Shown here: positions 17,773-42,289 of the stretch, piece after piece
Layout: each line of letters begins with the position of its first letter
Position numbering within the stretch: the stretch's first letter is position 1
Source of the DNA: Pocillopora verrucosa
Lineage: Eukaryota; Cnidaria; Anthozoa; Scleractinia; Pocilloporidae
Length of the DNA stretch: 64,000 nt
Reading direction: 5' to 3'
Assembly (NCBI RefSeq): GCF_036669915.1
Contig: NC_089320.1
Span: forward strand, 4,808,039 to 4,872,038
Notes under the pieces: generated by a model
Told to the model about the DNA's origin: nothing
What the model saw: only the letters and a program-made list of their open reading frames with translations
The model's database searches: none
Made by a program: the position numbers and the translations under genes

Positions 17773-20700
17773 ATGGATAATCTCAAGGAATTACTTAAAC
17801 CAAAAGCGTTTAACACAGTTAGCCACGCTGCAGTTGTTATTTGGATCCTGATCGGTGTAATCTTCCTTGGCATTTTTGCAGACGCAGAAAACAGCGAATC
17901 CAGGTATGATTTCCGCTGTGCCGGGGCGAAGAGTGAAAACATCGACCTTGTTCGTGGAAGATGTTTTGAGTTATACGAGAAGCGGTATAACAAACACGAT
18001 GTTCCTATCTATGCCTTCGTGATCATGAATTTCTTCCTCATCGGAACTGTCTGTGCTATTTACTCCCAAATAGCGAGCCTCACAATCAATCAACTGTCGC
18101 CAAGCGCTCGTAACGGTGATCTCGAGGGGCAGTTGTGCGACCAAGGAAACGCACCTTCTAGTAAAAAGCTGTTTATCGCTTACTGTTGTCAACTTTTCGC
18201 AAGGATTGTTTTAGGAGTTCTCTTCATGGTTCTACAAAAACAGTTTCTCTATCCTCTGGACTTCCCCCCCAACTTCCCTTGTTATCTAACCTCTGGAGGG
18301 AGTCAGCCAAGGAATTCTACTGGCGTCTGGCACGAGTGTCATAATCAACGAGCAACTAAGAAAAACTCCTGGATGCGCGCTGTTCTTGTCCTTAATGGGA
18401 TTTTTCTCTTTGGTATTCTGTTGGAAACCGCCTATATTTTGCTACGAGCCTGGAAAGAGGATAGTTTCATGAAAAATTCCAAGTTTCTAAAGGCTCACCT
18501 GAATCCCTTCCATGCTGACTCGCAAAATGCTACCACACCGCCTGTGTTGAGACCTGAACCTCCGCAGCAAGAAGAAAGAACAGAGCAAGAAGAAAGAACA
18601 GAGCAAGAAATGAACGTCCCACGAGAACAACACCAGGGAGAGGAAAGTAAAGAACATGAAACGAACATTCCACATCTGCCAAGCAAGCCTCAAAAACTCC
18701 AAAAACCACCGCTTCAGGAATTCATCGAGAATACAAAAGAAATTATTAAAAAGGCGACCAATCAAACTCCCCAACTCCGGTCGCCTTTTTCAAGTACTCC
18801 AGGCGAAGGACACCGAGTTAAACATTTGACTCTGGATCAGATTTACACAAAACTTGTCGTTGTTCCAGACATAGCTGATCATGACTTTACTGGAGACAGA
18901 CTGGAGAAACTGGAAGTCTACACCAGATCGGGTGGGGAAAACACAACACCAAGAGGGCCGGAGGACATTCTTGACCACGAAAACAAAAACGTTTTGATTG
19001 TTGGTCGTCCCGGAATCGGAAAGACACTATGCTGTACCAAACTCCTCAGAGACTGGGCATTTAACAAAGTATTCCATGAATCACCTGATTCCAAAATCCA
19101 TTTTGATGTTACTTTCTTCATCAAATTCAGAGCATTCAACGCGAAAGCCGACCTTAGCCTCAGGGAACTGCTCACATTGTCAGAACATTCCCCCTCAGAT
19201 CACATGGATGATGAAGTCTGGAAATACGTCCTTGATAACCCCCAAAGAGTTCTCATTATTTTCGATGGAATCGATGAATTTAAACTTAATTCAAAAATCG
19301 GCGAGGAAAATTTCGAGTCTAACTTCAAAGACCGCGTAGACGAGAAGATGCCCCTTTTCGCCTTGTACGAGAAGCTTGCGACTGGGAAACTTCTCAACGG
19401 GGCTGCCGTTTTAACAACCACAAGACCCACAGCTTTGTCATGCATCGAATGTGTTTCTTTCGACAAAACCTTCGAAGTCCTCGGCTTCTCGTCCAAACAA
19501 GTCAAAGAATACGTAACCAAATTCAGTGCTGAAGAAGACAAGGATGCGGGAGAAACACTATGGCGACACATCGGCGGCAACAGGAACATTCTCTCTCTAT
19601 GCTACATTCCTGCGAGTTGCTTCATCATTTGCTCAACTCTCTTTCAAATGGTGAAGTTCTATGGTTCCAAGAGTCTTAGCCTACCAACGAATCTAACAGT
19701 TATTTACAAGAAAGCAGTGAAAATTTTTTACTTCAGACACAACGAAGAATTCCGCGGCAAGTATTTCGATAGTAAATTCTTGGAATCAGACAAGTTACCC
19801 CCTGAAGTGGAAAAGAAATTCTCGAAACTTGAAAAAATGGCATTTCAAGGAATTAAAGAAGGAAGGCTGGTCTTTGAAGGACACGAAGTACGCGGAATGG
19901 AAGACAACGCTCTTTTTCACCGCTTACCCGACCGTCGGCCTGACACATTTGAACGCGAGGAAAAATTCTGTTTCATTCATTTAACAATGCAAGAGTTTTT
20001 CGCTGCGAGGCACCTAGCAAACATGAATGAAACAGAACTGAGGAACTTTGTTTCTACGAACATCGCGGAAGGCAAATGGCAGCTGGTTTTTCAGTTTCTA
20101 GCAGGACTAATGAACGAGAAAGAAAACCTACCGAGCGAAATCATCACAGACCTTCTTCCTGTGGAAACTCAAGAGAAAGAAAGCGAGTGGTACAACGAAG
20201 AGTGGACAGAGGATATAGAGCCAAGGAAAGTAACTTTGTGGCCGACTGAAGACAAAAAACATTCAGCAGTGACATTATTTAAATGTACTAACGAAAGTAG
20301 TGAGATGGAGGAAATAATTCAGAGAAAACTACAACAAATTAACTTTAATTTGGTAAATTTTAATCGTTGTCAACTTACACCTGTTGATTGTGCTTCAGTA
20401 GTTACTGTAATTAAGAATGTTCAACAAATTTCACATTTAGATTTGGCTGGCAATCACTTTGGTCCATTAGGTTGTTTTGAAATTTGTAACTTGTTAAAAT
20501 GTAGTAAGTCTCAACTGAGCTGGTTAAACCTCATAGGAAATCAATTGACAGACGAAGGAGCAAAGTATTTAGCTGAAGCCATCAACAACAACAACTGTCA
20601 GCTACGCAGGTTACACCTCTGGCAAAATGACATCTCAGACATTGGAGCACAGCACTTGGCTGAAGCCATCAACAACAACAACTGTCAGCTACGCACGTTA

Positions 20701-21228
20701 AACCTCACATACAATAACATCTCAGACATTGGAGCACAGCACTTGGCTGAAGCCATCAACAACAACAACTGTCAGCTACGCACGTTAAACCTCTGGGGAA
20801 ATAAAATCTTAGACATTGGAACACAGCACTTGGCTGAAGCCATCAACAACAACAACTGTCAGCTACGCACGTTAAACCTCTCAGACAATAACATCTCAGA
20901 CATTGGAGCACAGCACTTGGCTGAAGCCATCAACAACAACAACTGTCAGCTACGCACGTTAATCCTCGCACACAATAACATCTCAGACATTGGAGCACAG
21001 CACTTGGCTGAAGCCATCAACAACAACAACTGTCAGCTACGCACGTTAAACCTCATGCAAATTAACATCTCAGACATTGGAGCACAGCACTTGGCTGAAG
21101 CCATCAACAACAACAACTGTCAGCTACGCACGTTAGACCTCACAAGAAATAACATCACAGAAGCAGGTAAACAACACGCAGAGAATTTACTTAGCAATAG
21201 TCAATCTAACTGTCGCCTTATTATCTAA
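17773..21228 (+). CDS. membrane-anchored NACHT-LRR (NLR-type) receptor, 1151 aa
   Basis: Intronless. The ATG at 17773 is chosen because the frame upstream opens only with GTG. Hydrophobic spans lie at residues about 16-36, 78-100, 133-154 and 201-225. The two predicted outer loops carry C49/C64 and C170/C189 plus a sequon (N181-S-T). A charged, repetitive linker (EERTEQ twice) follows at 255-345. NACHT: Walker A GRPGIGKT at 411-418, Walker B LIIFDGIDE at 494-502, sensor-like TTTRPTA at 548-554, and the winged-helix motif FIHLTMQEFFAARHL at 734-748. LRRs of ribonuclease-inhibitor type run from about 884 to the end. NLRs are ATP-driven switches that oligomerise on ligand sensing. A four-span N-terminus in place of CARD, DEATH or PYD is unusual; the loop pattern suggests a large-pore-channel-like module (inference). 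An ATTAAA at 21269 may be the poly(A) signal. Confidence 0.93.
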   Translation: MDNLKELLKPKAFNTVSHAAVVIWILIGVIFLGIFADAENSESRYDFRCAGAKSENIDLVRGRCFELYEKRYNKHDVPIYAFVIMNFFLIGTVCAIYSQIASLTINQLSPSARNGDLEGQLCDQGNAPSSKKLFIAYCCQLFARIVLGVLFMVLQKQFLYPLDFPPNFPCYLTSGGSQPRNSTGVWHECHNQRATKKNSWMRAVLVLNGIFLFGILLETAYILLRAWKEDSFMKNSKFLKAHLNPFHADSQNATTPPVLRPEPPQQEERTEQEERTEQEMNVPREQHQGEESKEHETNIPHLPSKPQKLQKPPLQEFIENTKEIIKKATNQTPQLRSPFSSTPGEGHRVKHLTLDQIYTKLVVVPDIADHDFTGDRLEKLEVYTRSGGENTTPRGPEDILDHENKNVLIVGRPGIGKTLCCTKLLRDWAFNKVFHESPDSKIHFDVTFFIKFRAFNAKADLSLRELLTLSEHSPSDHMDDEVWKYVLDNPQRVLIIFDGIDEFKLNSKIGEENFESNFKDRVDEKMPLFALYEKLATGKLLNGAAVLTTTRPTALSCIECVSFDKTFEVLGFSSKQVKEYVTKFSAEEDKDAGETLWRHIGGNRNILSLCYIPASCFIICSTLFQMVKFYGSKSLSLPTNLTVIYKKAVKIFYFRHNEEFRGKYFDSKFLESDKLPPEVEKKFSKLEKMAFQGIKEGRLVFEGHEVRGMEDNALFHRLPDRRPDTFEREEKFCFIHLTMQEFFAARHLANMNETELRNFVSTNIAEGKWQLVFQFLAGLMNEKENLPSEIITDLLPVETQEKESEWYNEEWTEDIEPRKVTLWPTEDKKHSAVTLFKCTNESSEMEEIIQRKLQQINFNLVNFNRCQLTPVDCASVVTVIKNVQQISHLDLAGNHFGPLGCFEICNLLKCSKSQLSWLNLIGNQLTDEGAKYLAEAINNNNCQLRRLHLWQNDISDIGAQHLAEAINNNNCQLRTLNLTYNNISDIGAQHLAEAINNNNCQLRTLNLWGNKILDIGTQHLAEAINNNNCQLRTLNLSDNNISDIGAQHLAEAINNNNCQLRTLILAHNNISDIGAQHLAEAINNNNCQLRTLNLMQINISDIGAQHLAEAINNNNCQLRTLDLTRNNITEAGKQHAENLLSNSQSNCRLII
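20572..21180 (+). repeat. seven 87-bp tandem LRR units, near-identical
   Basis: The block GCTGAAGCCATCAACAACAA begins at 20572, 20659, 20746, 20833, 20920, 21007 and 21094, exactly 87 bp apart. Each unit encodes a 29-residue ribonuclease-inhibitor-type LRR. The AEAINNNNCQLR part is identical in every unit, while the residues after RTL (LNLTYNN, LNLWGNK, LNLSDNN, LILAHNN, LNLMQIN, LDLTRNN) differ. Confidence 0.97.
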
Positions 21229-23037: not shown

Positions 23038-23510
23038 ACATGCTCATCTGCAATTATTGTTAGGAGTTCTTTGTCTCAATATAAACAAATTGCGCTTTAA
23101 CTTGGGGCAGAAGAGCACAGAACACGTCATCACAATGGAATGTGCTGCACATCTAATTCATCACCTTAAAGAAAAATGTGTAAAAATATGTGATATGTCA
23201 GTTAGCTTACTCACAAGCATATTAACTTGGTACATCTAGAAATATGCAAATTAGTCTTTAACTTACATTTATCTCAGTAGTCTGGAAATGTGGAATTCTG
23301 GAAATATGCCAATAATTCTTTAGCTAGGTTGCATGTATCTTAACTTGGCAGTCTATAAATGCAAAAATCTGGAAATAGTAAAAGGATATGGTTTTAACTT
23401 TGGTTCTAAAAACATTCAATTTTCTTTGTAGCCCACTGTCTTGCTTCCTCTACTTCATTCAGTAAAGAAAGATCCTTAATCTATCAAACACCTTTGTTTT
23501 GTTCAATTTC

Positions 23511-23649
23511 CTCAATTGGTAGAGCACTGCACCGGTATCGCAGAGGTCATGGGTTCAAATCCCGTACGGGCCTGAAATTTTTTTCAGGTCCTACTTACAA
23601 CTACTAGTTTCAGTAGTGTTCTTAGCTGCGAGGATCTTCTAATTTCATC
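23511..23649 (+). mobile_element. tRNA-derived SINE-like unit 1 (head truncated)
   Basis: Begins CTCAATTGGTAGAGC (A-box-like) and contains GGGTTCAAATCCC (B box). A hairpin CCTGAAATTTTTTTCAGG and a shared tail ending GAGGATCTTCTAATTTCATC follow. The acceptor-stem 5' strand is missing. It differs from unit 2 at only about four positions over 139 bp. Confidence 0.7.
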
Positions 23650-23745
23650 TTTCCACCGCAGTGCAAATATGTGAATTTTCATATATCTAAATCTTCATTC
23701 ACTCGGATGTTTATTTGTACCCAATTCATTGACCAGCTCCCAGTT

Positions 23746-23894
23746 GGCTTGTTAGCTCAATTGGTAGAGCGCTGCACCAGTATCGCAGAGGTCATGGGTT
23801 CAAATCCCGTATGGGCCTGAAATTTTTTTCAGGTCCTACTTACAACTACTAGTTTCAGTAGTGTTCTTAGCTGCGAGGATCTTCTAATTTCATC
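23746..23894 (+). mobile_element. tRNA-derived SINE-like unit 2 (tRNA-Thr-like head)
   Basis: The tRNA-like head is 23746-23817: acceptor strands GGCTTGT/ATGGGCC pair fully with G-U wobbles, the D arm has TTGGTAGAGC, and the T arm is GGGTTCAAATCCC. The anticodon loop reads CCAGTAT, so the triplet would be AGU (Thr), but position 33 is C rather than U and the anticodon stem has an A-C pair at its base. With the shared 3' tail also found in unit 1, this is best read as a SINE rather than a working tRNA gene. Confidence 0.7.
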
Positions 23895-37168: not shown

Positions 37169-40100
37169 TTAGTTCACTTTACATTCATTACTTGTGTTGT
37201 CGTACCCGGAGGGCGTGGCAAGACGTATCACTTCTGGTTGAATGTCATTTGAACTAAACTCTTGTGATTTCTCTTGGCTGTCACAGTCCTTAGCCATTTC
37301 TACATTCTCAACATGACATGCTGTTGTAAACCGCAAAGGTTCCCCTGTCTTGCACACAACTGATACTTTCCCGTGACCAACGATCACCATCTCTTCTGAA
37401 ATTTCAACACTTGTCTCCAACAGATACTCGCCTTCTTTTATTACAACGACTTGATTCTTCGAATTCCCCTCAAGCTTCTCTGCATTTTGAATGACACGCC
37501 GCAGCTGATCCGAAGTTTCCACATCTAGGACTTGGATCTCTCCATAGCGCTGAGTGACTTCAGAGATATCCCGACCTTGGCTCAGGTGTTTAAACACTGC
37601 AGCAGCAGCGAGTGCTTCTGGCTTTCTACCCAGTTCTGCCAAGGTTACAGACTTAACGCGGTAACCAAGCAGCCAGGAAGGGTCAGCTTTGATGGCAGCT
37701 TCAGCGTCATTTAATGCAAGCTGCAACGAAGGCTTCCTCTTTGACGGACTACCATTTTGTTGTTGGGCAGATCTTAAGTAGGTTAACGCCCTGCTAGTGA
37801 GAATCTTTGAATCGTTTGGACATAGAACCAGTGCTTCATTATACATCGTTAGGGCTGCGTCTAATTGGCCGCGATCGAGGCAAGCTTTGGCAGACTCTTT
37901 GAGACTTTTGATGGACTCATCTGTGGATGATTGCGCAATGTTCTCCATGTAAATGGCTTGTGGAACACAACTATAGCACATTATTTGGACCTTGCCAAGA
38001 CCAACCATTACTGTATTTTCTGGGACCTTTAAGGGCTCTGTTAGCTGGTACCGCCCTTCTTTCACCACAATAACTAGATTTCGAGTATCTGTTTTCTCCG
38101 CTGCTGATTGAAAGTCTTGTACTGTGTTAACGACATGTACATCAAACTTTCCAAAGCGACGCTCGACTACTGGAATGTTTGTGCAGTTCGATGGAAACAG
38201 ATGCCGAGATATCGCAGCTGTAGCAAGTGAAGGCCCTCGTTCGTCAAGATGAGCAAGGCAGACAGCCTTCCAATAATACCCCTTTGCCCAAGAGGGATCT
38301 GTCTTTATGGCATTCTGCGAATCATCTAAGGCACGTCTAAGCCATTCCTGTTTGACTTTCAATGAGCATTGTTTCTCTGATAGTTTTAAACTTGTTGCAG
38401 CTCTATTAGTCAGCAACTTGGCATCATTTGGAGACAAACCTAAAGCGTCAGAATAGTGTTTATATGCCCCAACATAATCGTGTTCTCTGAATAAAGCATT
38501 ACCCCTGTCTTTCAGTGCTCGTGTTGCGTACATATTTACATCACACTGCGGCACTCTTTGGAAGAACTGTTGTTTTGGTTCTGTATCACATTGTTGCAAC
38601 AACTGCATGTAATGTTTGGCGTCCGCTTCATTTCCTAGGATGGAATTAATTGCTTTTAAATTCATGTAGGCGGTTTTCAAGCGTGGGTTCGTTTCACCGT
38701 AAAATTTTTTGCGAATCGCTAATGCAATCTGAGCTATTGTCAAGTGTATTTTTTTTGTAGCATTTTGCACGTTTCTTTCGCAAGCTTTGGACCAGCACAC
38801 GAGGAGGCCCTCCAGAACTCCAGCCGCGTGGTCATCGCTTCCATCCTCAATAATGACAACTCTAGTTTCTGTGCAGCCGTTGATCACGCTTGTGTATATA
38901 CGAGGCCACCTTTTTTCTAGCATTTTAAGTAGCATAGTTTCCGATTTCTGGCTATCAAAAGTGCTGAGTATCACGAGAGCATCAGTCATTCCCTTGATGT
39001 AATAATCAGAGTCATGTGGCATCGTCTTGCAAACATCTAACATTTCCTCAGCGTACGGCTTTGCCTCAGTGGACTTTCCTTCATTGTTGAGTAGAGTCGC
39101 AATGTGCTGTAGAACACGTAACAACATTCCCTGATCTGGAGGTTGTAATTCCCTGGCAAGTTTCAAGGCATACTTGTGACGTTTCAAAGCTGATTTGAAA
39201 TTACAAGCTGATACCTGATTTTCGGCTCGTGCAATCATCATTTGAAGATCAACAGATTCAGCAGCACTTAGTTTTAGACTCTCAAGTTGAAGTAAGGCTT
39301 CGTAATTTTTCTTCCACTCCCCTTCAATCGCGTAATATGAGGCGCGCTGTTCGAGAACTAGATATTTAACATCGTCAGGTACAATTGCTCCAGAAGTTTC
39401 CAGTTCATAAAGCTTTCGCACTGCTTCATCGGCGAGTTTCTTTGCTTCTTCGTAACTCACGAGATCAGAGCAATTTCTTCTTCTGACACTTGCTTCCACC
39501 ATCATTACAAGAATTGTTCTGGGATCCTCACGACAACACATTCTTTGAACTTGCAACATAAACTCTGAGAATTCAGCATTCAACTTAACAAGAAATATGT
39601 TCATCCCAATTAATCGCTTAGTTAAGTTGAACAGTTGACCAAAAGTGTCATCACTTCCAATACAATCGACGAAGCGATCCATTGATAACTTCATCTCTGC
39701 CTGTAAGTGATCCTTTAACTTCCGAGAATTCAACAAAAGAGCAATAAGAATATTTTTGTCTTCTTTGTCTACTTCTAACCAGTTTATCACATAGTGACCA
39801 TCAAACCTCAAACAGGATTCACTCTTCTTTCTAAGTGCACAGTGTAGAACGCGCATGGCTGCAGTCAATGTCTCTGTCCTTATTCGCGAAGTTAGGCTGT
39901 CACGAACCACCTCTTGAACAAGTTTGTGTACACTAAATACTTTGCTTTGTTGATCAACTGAGAAAAGGGAGTAACAGGTCAGTACCTTGAGGACGGCAGA
40001 AATGTCGATCTTAGAACACGCAGCTTCTCTTAACTCGACTTGATCTATAGCAGGAAGACCAGGATTGATGACTTCGAAAGGAATATTCTCAGACTCTAGA

Positions 40101-42289
40101 AAGGATGCAATACGCATCATGGTGGCAGCAGCAGGCGATTTTTCAGCCACAAATTCAAAATTCATTTCCCAGGTAGTGTGTACAGATAAACGATGCTGAG
40201 CTTCTATACTAAGCGCTGTTACTGGCTGATGTTTTAAAAGACGGAGCCTTACTTCTCGGTACTTGTCAAGGTAAGGTTTGAAGGTACAAGGAATGGGAAG
40301 CGCAGATATGTAAGCTGCTGCTTGCTCGAGGGCCAATGGAAGACCTCCCAGTTCCTTTGCCAGATCAACTGCTTCCTTGTAAAGGGATTCTTCCTCAAGG
40401 CCCGTTCTTTGCATTAGAAACAGGGCACCTTCCTTTTCAGTGAAAGACTGAAGCTCCAAACAATCTTTGGGCGACAGCTTCAACAGCGTTTTGATATCCC
40501 TCTCATTTTGCCTGGTAGTGAACAGTATTTGTCCATTCTTTGGTGCTTTTGCATTCCTTTGCCAGGGCCCATTGCATATTTTCATCACACCACTGGGACA
40601 CTTTGGGCTTGTCAACTCATCTGCATTGTCTACTACAAGGAGCCATGGACAATTTTTATTCGATAACAGAGCTAGAAATCTGTTGAGGGAATCATCGACA
40701 TTTTCATTTGTCGACGCAGGTATATTTAGTAAAGCAAGGTTCTCGGCAACTGATTTACGTACATTTTCATCACTTTCCCCATTAATCCAGAACACTCCAC
40801 CAGTGAAGTGTTTCTTCCATCTCCAGGCAAATTCTACCGCCAGAGAAGTCTTTCCGCATCCTCCAAGGCCACAAATGGTTTTTGTGCAGCAGGAAATGCC
40901 TGAAAATTTTGAAGAATCCTTATTGGACACTAAATTATGTTCTAACCATAGCAAGGCTGTCTCTCGCCCAGTGAATTCCTGTAATTGTCTCGGTGCGGTA
41001 CATGGTGTGGCAACATCATCTTCTCTTTGTACAACCGAGGATTTTGCCTTGAAGGTTTCTACTTCAGATTTCATGCTTTCGATGCTGACCTCTAAGTCGG
41101 CGATTTTATCTTTTGCTGTGTTAAGGTCCGGGACAACGTCATCCAAACAGCCTGCCACATTCTTTAGATCCTCACTGATAACATCTACGGCACCATGCAA
41201 ATAATCTCGCTCATCAAGCAACCTATTGAAGTTTTCAACACTTTTTAATAGCATTGAAATTTCCTGTTTAAGGACTTCAACATCGGTCAATGTGTCAGTG
41301 AGTTGTTTTCCATGTTTGGCAAACTCTTCTCGATGGAATGCACCCTGCTCTTTCAGGTTGGATAAGTCTCTCTGAGCACACTCTTCAGTTCTTTTTATAT
41401 CTGAAGTAAGCTGCCTGATATTTTCTTGAGCTTCTAGTAAATCATTCTGGCCTTTCCCCAGGTCTGTCCTTGCAGCATGTACCTCTGTATCCAGCTCCGC
41501 TAGTTGGTCCCTTAGCTCGGCTATCTCTTCTTTGTTTCCACTGCTTCGTGTTTTTACTTCAGATAAATCATTCATGCACCTTGTTACGTCTGCAACCAGC
41601 GACTGACCCAGCAAATGAAGAGCCTCAACTTCGGATTCCCTTACATTTACGAGCCCATGATAAAACAAGTCTTGCAAATTTTTCGAAGATTCCTGCACCG
41701 CTTTGTCTGCCTTGAAAACCGGGTCACTTAGCAGATTGTTAAGGTGTCCAAATATGGTGTTGACATCTGCATCTTGAAGTTCTTGTTTTGGCGAATGAGC
41801 CCAGTGATTTCTTCCCTTGTCTCGCACTGCATTCAAAACTACTCGATTGACCGAGGAATGGATGAAAGGACACCATTCTAACACGTTTAAGAGCCCGCTA
41901 ATGTCTGTAGTATTGGCATCTATGATGTCTCCTTTCCGTGTTCCTAATGTTGGCATGAAGACTTTTGCTATTTCCCATACCCCTACAGGAGATCCCCATT
42001 GTTGTCTATCACTGTTGTTCCAGCAAATCTTTGGTCGTGGAGACTTGTGGAGGCGCTCCAGCTCTTTCTTCCAAGTAGTACAAGTGGCACATTTGGAAGA
42101 GTGACCTGCACAGGTACATGGGGGAAGTGAGTGCAAAGGAGGGCTGGAAATAAGTGACTGGTACCAAGCCTCCATTTGTCTTTGGATTAATGGTGTGATT
42201 CCATTTTTTGTTATGTTCAAGGCACATCCGACCATTACCCAGTTTTTGTGCTCTTTCTTATCAAGTTCTGCCGTCCAGCCGGTAGCCAT
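37169..42289 (-). CDS. HEPN-coiled coil-NB-ARC-TPR STAND protein, 1706 aa
   Basis: Intronless. The ATG at 42289 follows an in-frame TGA and has a good Kozak context. In order: a Cys cluster CxCx6CxxC at residues 58-70; a DZIP3-like HEPN-type domain to about 190 with RNHWAH at 160-165, which fits the Rx4-6H motif of HEPN RNases; coiled coil at about 215-420; NB-ARC with Walker A GLGGCGKT (474-481), Walker B WLLVVDNADE (549-558), GQILFTTR (586-593), GLPLALEQ (649-656) and the winged-helix histidine VHKL (787-790); helical TPR-like repeats at about 940-1240; and two copies of a TPR plus beta-strand module at 1256-1438 and 1463-1646. STAND proteins switch between ADP and ATP states, the TPRs sensing a ligand. 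Roles as an immune sensor and RNase are inferred from family patterns. Broken relatives lie on both sides. Confidence 0.93.
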   Translation of the reverse strand: MATGWTAELDKKEHKNWVMVGCALNITKNGITPLIQRQMEAWYQSLISSPPLHSLPPCTCAGHSSKCATCTTWKKELERLHKSPRPKICWNNSDRQQWGSPVGVWEIAKVFMPTLGTRKGDIIDANTTDISGLLNVLEWCPFIHSSVNRVVLNAVRDKGRNHWAHSPKQELQDADVNTIFGHLNNLLSDPVFKADKAVQESSKNLQDLFYHGLVNVRESEVEALHLLGQSLVADVTRCMNDLSEVKTRSSGNKEEIAELRDQLAELDTEVHAARTDLGKGQNDLLEAQENIRQLTSDIKRTEECAQRDLSNLKEQGAFHREEFAKHGKQLTDTLTDVEVLKQEISMLLKSVENFNRLLDERDYLHGAVDVISEDLKNVAGCLDDVVPDLNTAKDKIADLEVSIESMKSEVETFKAKSSVVQREDDVATPCTAPRQLQEFTGRETALLWLEHNLVSNKDSSKFSGISCCTKTICGLGGCGKTSLAVEFAWRWKKHFTGGVFWINGESDENVRKSVAENLALLNIPASTNENVDDSLNRFLALLSNKNCPWLLVVDNADELTSPKCPSGVMKICNGPWQRNAKAPKNGQILFTTRQNERDIKTLLKLSPKDCLELQSFTEKEGALFLMQRTGLEEESLYKEAVDLAKELGGLPLALEQAAAYISALPIPCTFKPYLDKYREVRLRLLKHQPVTALSIEAQHRLSVHTTWEMNFEFVAEKSPAAATMMRIASFLESENIPFEVINPGLPAIDQVELREAACSKIDISAVLKVLTCYSLFSVDQQSKVFSVHKLVQEVVRDSLTSRIRTETLTAAMRVLHCALRKKSESCLRFDGHYVINWLEVDKEDKNILIALLLNSRKLKDHLQAEMKLSMDRFVDCIGSDDTFGQLFNLTKRLIGMNIFLVKLNAEFSEFMLQVQRMCCREDPRTILVMMVEASVRRRNCSDLVSYEEAKKLADEAVRKLYELETSGAIVPDDVKYLVLEQRASYYAIEGEWKKNYEALLQLESLKLSAAESVDLQMMIARAENQVSACNFKSALKRHKYALKLARELQPPDQGMLLRVLQHIATLLNNEGKSTEAKPYAEEMLDVCKTMPHDSDYYIKGMTDALVILSTFDSQKSETMLLKMLEKRWPRIYTSVINGCTETRVVIIEDGSDDHAAGVLEGLLVCWSKACERNVQNATKKIHLTIAQIALAIRKKFYGETNPRLKTAYMNLKAINSILGNEADAKHYMQLLQQCDTEPKQQFFQRVPQCDVNMYATRALKDRGNALFREHDYVGAYKHYSDALGLSPNDAKLLTNRAATSLKLSEKQCSLKVKQEWLRRALDDSQNAIKTDPSWAKGYYWKAVCLAHLDERGPSLATAAISRHLFPSNCTNIPVVERRFGKFDVHVVNTVQDFQSAAEKTDTRNLVIVVKEGRYQLTEPLKVPENTVMVGLGKVQIMCYSCVPQAIYMENIAQSSTDESIKSLKESAKACLDRGQLDAALTMYNEALVLCPNDSKILTSRALTYLRSAQQQNGSPSKRKPSLQLALNDAEAAIKADPSWLLGYRVKSVTLAELGRKPEALAAAAVFKHLSQGRDISEVTQRYGEIQVLDVETSDQLRRVIQNAEKLEGNSKNQVVVIKEGEYLLETSVEISEEMVIVGHGKVSVVCKTGEPLRFTTACHVENVEMAKDCDSQEKSQEFSSNDIQPEVIRLATPSGYDNTSNECKVN

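Follow-up and report, generated by a model that had tools for sequence, protein, structure and literature searches.

Connexins (PF00029; e.g. Cx26, Cx31.3/GJC3, Cx36 and Cx43) are regarded as a de novo product of early chordates, and a BLAST-based search of non-chordates ended without an accepted connexin-like protein (PMC8769644). A second paper likewise reports them in vertebrates and tunicates only (PMC6391747). Here we analysed 64,000 nucleotides of the genome of the coral Pocillopora verrucosa (NC_089320.1, positions 4,808,039 to 4,872,038; hereafter the window), in which a single-frame gene encodes a nucleotide-binding, leucine-rich repeat (NLR) receptor that begins with a membrane module. 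Like connexins, this module (residues 1-232) has four spans, a short N-terminal segment and two outer loops, and it is followed in the same chain by a NACHT domain, an NLR helical domain and leucine-rich repeats (LRRs). We propose that the receptor is probably a membrane-resident NLR hemichannel, its putative pore gated by the NACHT-LRR part.

NLRs carrying N-terminal spans have been described in Anthozoa before. Anemone NLRs with 3-5 N-terminal transmembrane domains fall into one NACHT clade, with earlier reports from N. vectensis and A. digitifera, and the word "connexin" occurs 0 times in that study (PMC5094078). Judged by architecture, with spans at the N-terminus and one NACHT clade, the coral family is like these transmembrane NLRs, and the window receptor is an NLR of this kind with a newly identified membrane module. 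Since such anthozoan NLRs were already known, the novelty lies in the identity of the module. Neither a connexin-NLR report nor the combination of connexin, NACHT and cnidaria was found in a literature search run without most subscription papers and without bioRxiv preprints.

Two further systems invite comparison by architecture. In plant coiled-coil (CC) NLR resistosomes such as ZAR1, the NLR itself becomes a membrane channel upon activation by inserting a soluble N-terminal helix, whereas the coral receptor has its four-span module built in. The LRRC8 volume-regulated anion channels lack NACHT and have no detectable sequence relation to the module. Among connexins, Cx23/GJE1 shares with the module the number of four loop cysteines, a likeness of cysteine count and not of compared sequence, although it is a stand-alone chordate protein unlike the coral NLR-fused module. 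Mouse Cx23 supported ATP release with undetectable coupling, while zebrafish Cx23 formed both gap junctions and hemichannels (PMC3920103).

Relation of the N-terminal module to connexins

The homology of the four-span module to connexins is well supported by profile comparisons. With the whole protein as query, Pfam Connexin matched residues 128-223 with an E-value (E) of 4.1e-5; residues 1-232 alone gave E 3e-6 and 27.6 bits, below the curated cut-off of 31.3 bits. Connexin was matched by 0/10 control sequences (one reversed and nine shuffled, five of the shuffles leaving spans and loops in place), and the best control match to any family had E 0.0085. We then took 32 modules from the 49 available (50 fetched loci minus the truncated L017), omitting most near-copies. 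Singly, 26 of these 32 matched Connexin at E <=1 (best 4.4e-10), and the next families were DUF5316 (8/32, best 0.051) and 7tm_1 (7/32, best 2.5e-4).

As a profile against 177,635 distinct PDB sequences, the 32 modules returned 36 matches at E <=10, of which 34 were connexins (best 3e-5) and the remaining two were galanin receptor entries with E near 0.5. Aligned by hhalign to three connexins chosen among the best PDB profile matches, the same modules gave a probability of 97.4% and E 1.1e-11 over 175 columns (window residues 34-229). Reversal lowered the score from 79 to 13.7, and among 200 column shuffles that preserved spans and loops the highest score was 25.5; single connexins scored 51-63, with E from 3e-7 to 2e-9. 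The reversed and shuffled controls, in Pfam and hhalign alike, rule out chance or composition as the source of the Connexin match. The profile check of the N-terminal residues suggested by the original prediction thus found connexin homology, and hhalign confirms the register of the short blocks it had lined up with connexins by eye.

Two cysteines had been seen in each outer loop, C49 (17917-17919) and C64 (17962-17964) in loop 1, C170 (18280-18282) and C189 (18337-18339) in loop 2. All four are invariant in 49/49 modules, even where identity to the window copy falls to 22%, and they align with the first and third cysteines of each connexin loop, the middle one being absent in both loops. Also aligned are the motif C-[FYL]-x-x-[YF] following the last loop-1 cysteine, the stretch past the last loop-2 cysteine (CHNQRATKK in the module, CFVSRPTEK in connexins) and a span-4 glutamate, E218, which is invariant across the 32 aligned modules. 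In connexins the middle cysteines bond one another across the loops; the module would therefore lack one whole disulfide and keep the outer two. Unlike connexins, the module also has a longer loop 2, mostly with a sequon, is fused to NACHT-LRR and is non-chordate.

The four hydrophobic spans that had been described coincide with four hydropathy peaks in the window copy (residues 18-36, 79-97, 133-151 and 204-222; 19-residue means 2.57, 2.07, 2.10 and 2.03), and means of at least 1.6 were found for spans 1-4 in 49, 49, 46 and 49 of 49 modules. Within the module the only sequon is, as foreseen, in loop 2 (N181); the second one in the first 260 residues, N252, lies past the module. Across the family, sequons occur in loop 2 of 44/49 modules, in loop 1 of 4/49 and in the inner loop of 0/49. 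Over the 49 modules, with spans set by hydropathy, sequon placement agrees with both ends being cytosolic, but loop charge does not.

The original prediction had likened the span and loop layout to connexins, pannexins, innexins and LRRC8 together. The connexin part of this likeness extends to a sequence relation, whereas pannexin-1 and LRRC8A lie in the noise. Against PANX1, hhalign gave a score of 19 and E 0.07, within the range of the shuffle null, and against LRRC8A a score of 16 and E 0.21, so that by this method neither has a detectable relation to the module. Pannexin and LRRC8 were also absent among the 36 PDB profile matches. PF00876 did not appear among the Pfam matches of the window module up to E 10 (HMMER filters apply), and innexin and CALHM, with which no direct comparison was made, were absent from both those matches and the PDB profile list. 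In Foldseek, where a low-confidence, template-free, single-sequence model was the query, the best 50 of 147 matches were all connexins, pannexins or LRRC8, with connexins first and then pannexins and LRRC8.

Because its loops have two cysteines instead of three and the window copy scores under the Pfam cut-off, we do not class the module as a connexin; judged by its sequence, it is a connexin relative. A Connexin family search of the genome returned 51 matches, 47 of them in the NLR-module family, and six of those 47 places passed the curated cut-off (one only with neighbours in frame). A 126-codon frame at C5:23667701-23667880 on the minus strand (locus L051) has the loop-1 spacing CX6CX3C and matches Connexin weakly (E 0.019). 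It is probably a chance match, since besides a weak adjoining span-2-like match (E 0.47) its 30 kb surroundings held nothing convincing as a loop-2/span-4 partner. The Connexin matches at C11:11704260, 11109616 and 11128738 were judged false, frame lists showing histone genes in two stretches checked. As the first of these reached 32.8 bits with neighbours, above the cut-off, a six-frame Pfam match that exceeds this limit is no proof on its own.

The receptor family and its history

The window receptor reads as one frame from the start codon at 17773 to an in-frame stop at 21226-21228, with 0 internal stops. Its NACHT domain has intact ATPase motifs (Walker A GRPGIGKT, Walker B-like VLIIFDGIDE), and Pfam also identifies the NLR helical domain and the LRRs by which it qualifies as an NLR. 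The proposed architecture, an NLR whose N-terminus is itself a four-span, connexin/pannexin-like region, therefore holds, with NACHT, HD2, LRR and Connexin matches in a single frame.

In the genome searched (353.4 Mb, 52 contigs), residues 1-256 as tblastn query gave 69 matches. Full-length, stop-free modules (query start <=5, end >=226) number 58 on 11 contigs, and for 50 the open frame spans 850 codons or more. With a divergent member as query we obtained 63 matches, among which there was one further broken fragment and no full-length addition; no module relatives were found in viral contigs. It had been suggested to look for the module fused to NACHT or standing alone, and in the coral's own genome both were found. 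In 48/50 fetched loci the module is followed in frame by Walker A, with a Walker B-like motif in 45/48; the two loci without Walker A are one truncated copy and, on C1, a module of 249 codons that stands alone. NACHT and LRRs are present in 8/8 complete frames tested, a Connexin match at E <=0.01 in 4/8, the four divergent frames being without it. Taken from these reading frames, the covalent linkage of module and NACHT in one chain is well supported.

The stand-alone module (C1:22326423-22327085, minus strand; L040/L054) scores 38.8 bits against Connexin, and no NACHT match was found in the next 8 kb; it would be either a truncated copy or a stand-alone channel subunit. Conversely, 94 NACHT places were scored out of 404 candidates; 52 have a module no more than 2.5 kb away, whereas the other 42 lack one. 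Of the latter, 38/42 lie on C6 (26) and C8 (12).

The module is under constraint. In 13 usable pairs, ratios of nonsynonymous to synonymous substitution (dN/dS) relative to the window copy ranged from 0.25 to 0.42 in the module and from 0.20 to 0.47 in NACHT, values that gene conversion among paralogs may affect. In the linker the ratio was 0.31-1.37 (14 pairs), above that of the module in 12/13. These comparisons took 14 of 48 possible partners, L032 being saturated. Module and NACHT distances are correlated (r 0.926 for 45 members, of 48 loci with Walker A), a value reached by 0/2000 permutations. In a NACHT tree of 20 module-bearing loci (<80% identity) and 12 of the 42 module-less places, the module-bearing members form one clade with support 96/95; L034 sits on a long branch, about which the method warns. 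Given the single clade and the correlated distances, the fusion seems to have been one event, and an old one, in this genome. Apparently the module was joined to NACHT-LRR once, in an ancestor of the coral, and the family has since expanded to 58 full-length copies.

Layout of the window

Table 1. Receptor gene of the window and its parts (coordinates within the window).
Feature	Coordinates	Strand	Basis or content
Single-frame receptor gene, 1151 codons + stop	17773..21228	+	connexin-like module, linker, NACHT, HD2, LRR
N-terminal segment before span 1, residues 1-15	17773..17817	+	module alignment; positioned like the connexin N-terminal helix, similar role possible by analogy
Span 1, residues 16-36	17818..17880	+	hydropathy
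Loop 1, residues 37-77	17881..18003	+	aligned with connexin extracellular loop 1
Span 2, residues 78-100	18004..18072	+	hydropathy
Inner loop, residues 101-132	18073..18168	+	sequon in 0/49 modules
Span 3, residues 133-154	18169..18234	+	hydropathy; near start of Pfam Connexin match (128-223)
Loop 2, residues 155-200	18235..18372	+	aligned with connexin extracellular loop 2; sequon N181
Span 4, residues 201-225, including E218	18373..18447	+	hydropathy and alignment
Linker between module and NACHT	18448..18972	+	fast-evolving
NACHT ATPase domain, residues 407-587	18991..19533	+	Pfam, E 1.4e-28
NLRC4_HD2 helical domain, residues 736-845	19978..20307	+	Pfam
Leucine-rich repeats	20557..21225	+	Pfam and repeat scan

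Inside the linker lies an 18-base coding repeat (18566-18609). The LRR part holds seven 87-base units (20557-21161, 91% matches), which suggests that the sensing part of the receptor has recently undergone homogenisation or unequal crossing-over. A fifth hydropathy peak beyond NACHT (residues 606-624, 19588-19644) probably marks a helix buried in the NLR core. Of the eight complete frames that were scanned, one (L032) weakly matches 7tm_1 in the region right after NACHT.

Elsewhere in the window, a second large single-frame receptor-like gene of 1706 codons occupies 37169-42289 on the minus strand, with DUF4559, a weak NACHT, DUF7779 and tetratricopeptide repeats; a 245-codon frame lies on the strand opposite to it. 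At 23505-23890, a tRNA-Thr-like sequence (23746-23818) has a near-copy about 250 bases upstream, each followed by the same tail, and the pair are probably copies of a tRNA-derived short interspersed nuclear element. Outside the window, the GFP family gave 74 matches in the same genome, clustered on one contig, a feature that together with the type of NLR suggests an anthozoan, probably a stony coral. The sole reported innexin match and the module-family member that scores highest against Connexin lie about 58 kb apart (C11:12871452-12872003 and C11:12929780-12930514, both on the minus strand), which is probably a coincidence.

Channel, anchor or gap junction

An NLR hemichannel of the kind we propose would reside permanently in a membrane. 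By analogy with connexins, the four-span modules of about six receptors may form a ring, their loops facing the outside or the lumen of the endoplasmic reticulum and being held by two loop-to-loop disulfides. A ligand would be sensed by the cytosolic LRRs, upon which nucleotide exchange in NACHT would rearrange the NACHT ring and the linker would transmit this movement and open the pore. The immune output would then consist of ion flux and the efflux of ATP or other small molecules, without a recruited effector.

Several observations weigh against this reading or against the common descent with connexins on which it builds. Identity to connexins is 18% over the hhalign columns. The usual connexin loop-1 spacing, CX6CX3C, occurs in 0/49 modules and the loop-2 spacing, CX4-5CX5C, in 2/49, both spacings being present in the three connexins used for comparison. 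The counter-argument raised at the outset, two cysteines per loop against three, is thus real, though the retained ones align with the first and third and Cx23 also has four. Finally, the fold match of the low-confidence model reaches pannexins and LRRC8 besides connexins.

The main rival, which we consider unlikely but worth serious attention, is that the connexin-derived module does not conduct and only tethers or clusters the NLR at the membrane, with partners signalling as in other NLRs. The missing middle cysteines speak for it, and anthozoan NLRs with spans have been described as possibly membrane-bound (PMC5094078). However, a simple tether would presumably need just a single span, without conservation of the outer loops, whereas the four-span body and the loop cysteines are retained in members 22-34% identical to the window copy, and by dN/dS the constraint on the module is comparable to that on NACHT.

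It is improbable that the receptors instead dock between cells, with the NLR opening or shutting gap-junctional coupling upon infection. Such a role could draw on the specificity of the sequence relation to connexins, on zebrafish Cx23, which makes gap junctions as well as hemichannels with four loop cysteines (PMC3920103), and on the genome search for innexins, which gave one match at E <=0.001 (run in six frames on single exons, with 4 candidates scored). On the other hand, the modules depart from the connexin loop cysteine spacing, and the loop-2 sequons (44/49) fit a hemichannel better than gap-junction docking, because in chordate innexins N-glycosylation prevents gap-junction formation (PMC8769644).

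Convergence, either on an independent four-helix large-pore fold or on a generic membrane bundle resembling connexins, appears less probable still. The low identity and the breadth of the fold match would be expected under it, and innexins and pannexins are themselves regarded as unrelated to connexins (PMC8769644). The profile E-values of 1e-11 and 3e-5 are nevertheless specific to connexins among the families compared, and the signal disappears on shuffling even with spans and loops kept in position. That the module lies in frame with NACHT by chance, being a pseudogene, a transposed copy or an upstream gene with no relation to the receptor, is scarcely credible: some copies are truncated or have stops, but this account is already contradicted by the full module in frames of at least 850 codons in 50 copies, by Walker A in frame at 48/50 loci, by NACHT and LRRs in 8/8 complete frames, and by the correlated, single-clade history of module and NACHT.

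Returning to the hemichannel reading, we see as evenly balanced the broader proposal that sensor, ATP switch and large-pore channel are united in one chain, as NLR-gated connexin-type hemichannels with dozens of versions per genome. In that proposal connexin-type channels would be older than chordates, cnidarians would keep the module in immune receptors, and the chordate gap-junction connexins would be one branch. The connexin-homologous coral module provides a testable out-group for the question of connexin origin. Corals depend on distinguishing symbionts from pathogens, and it is in such an animal that this receptor family has expanded to dozens of copies with its membrane module under constraint.
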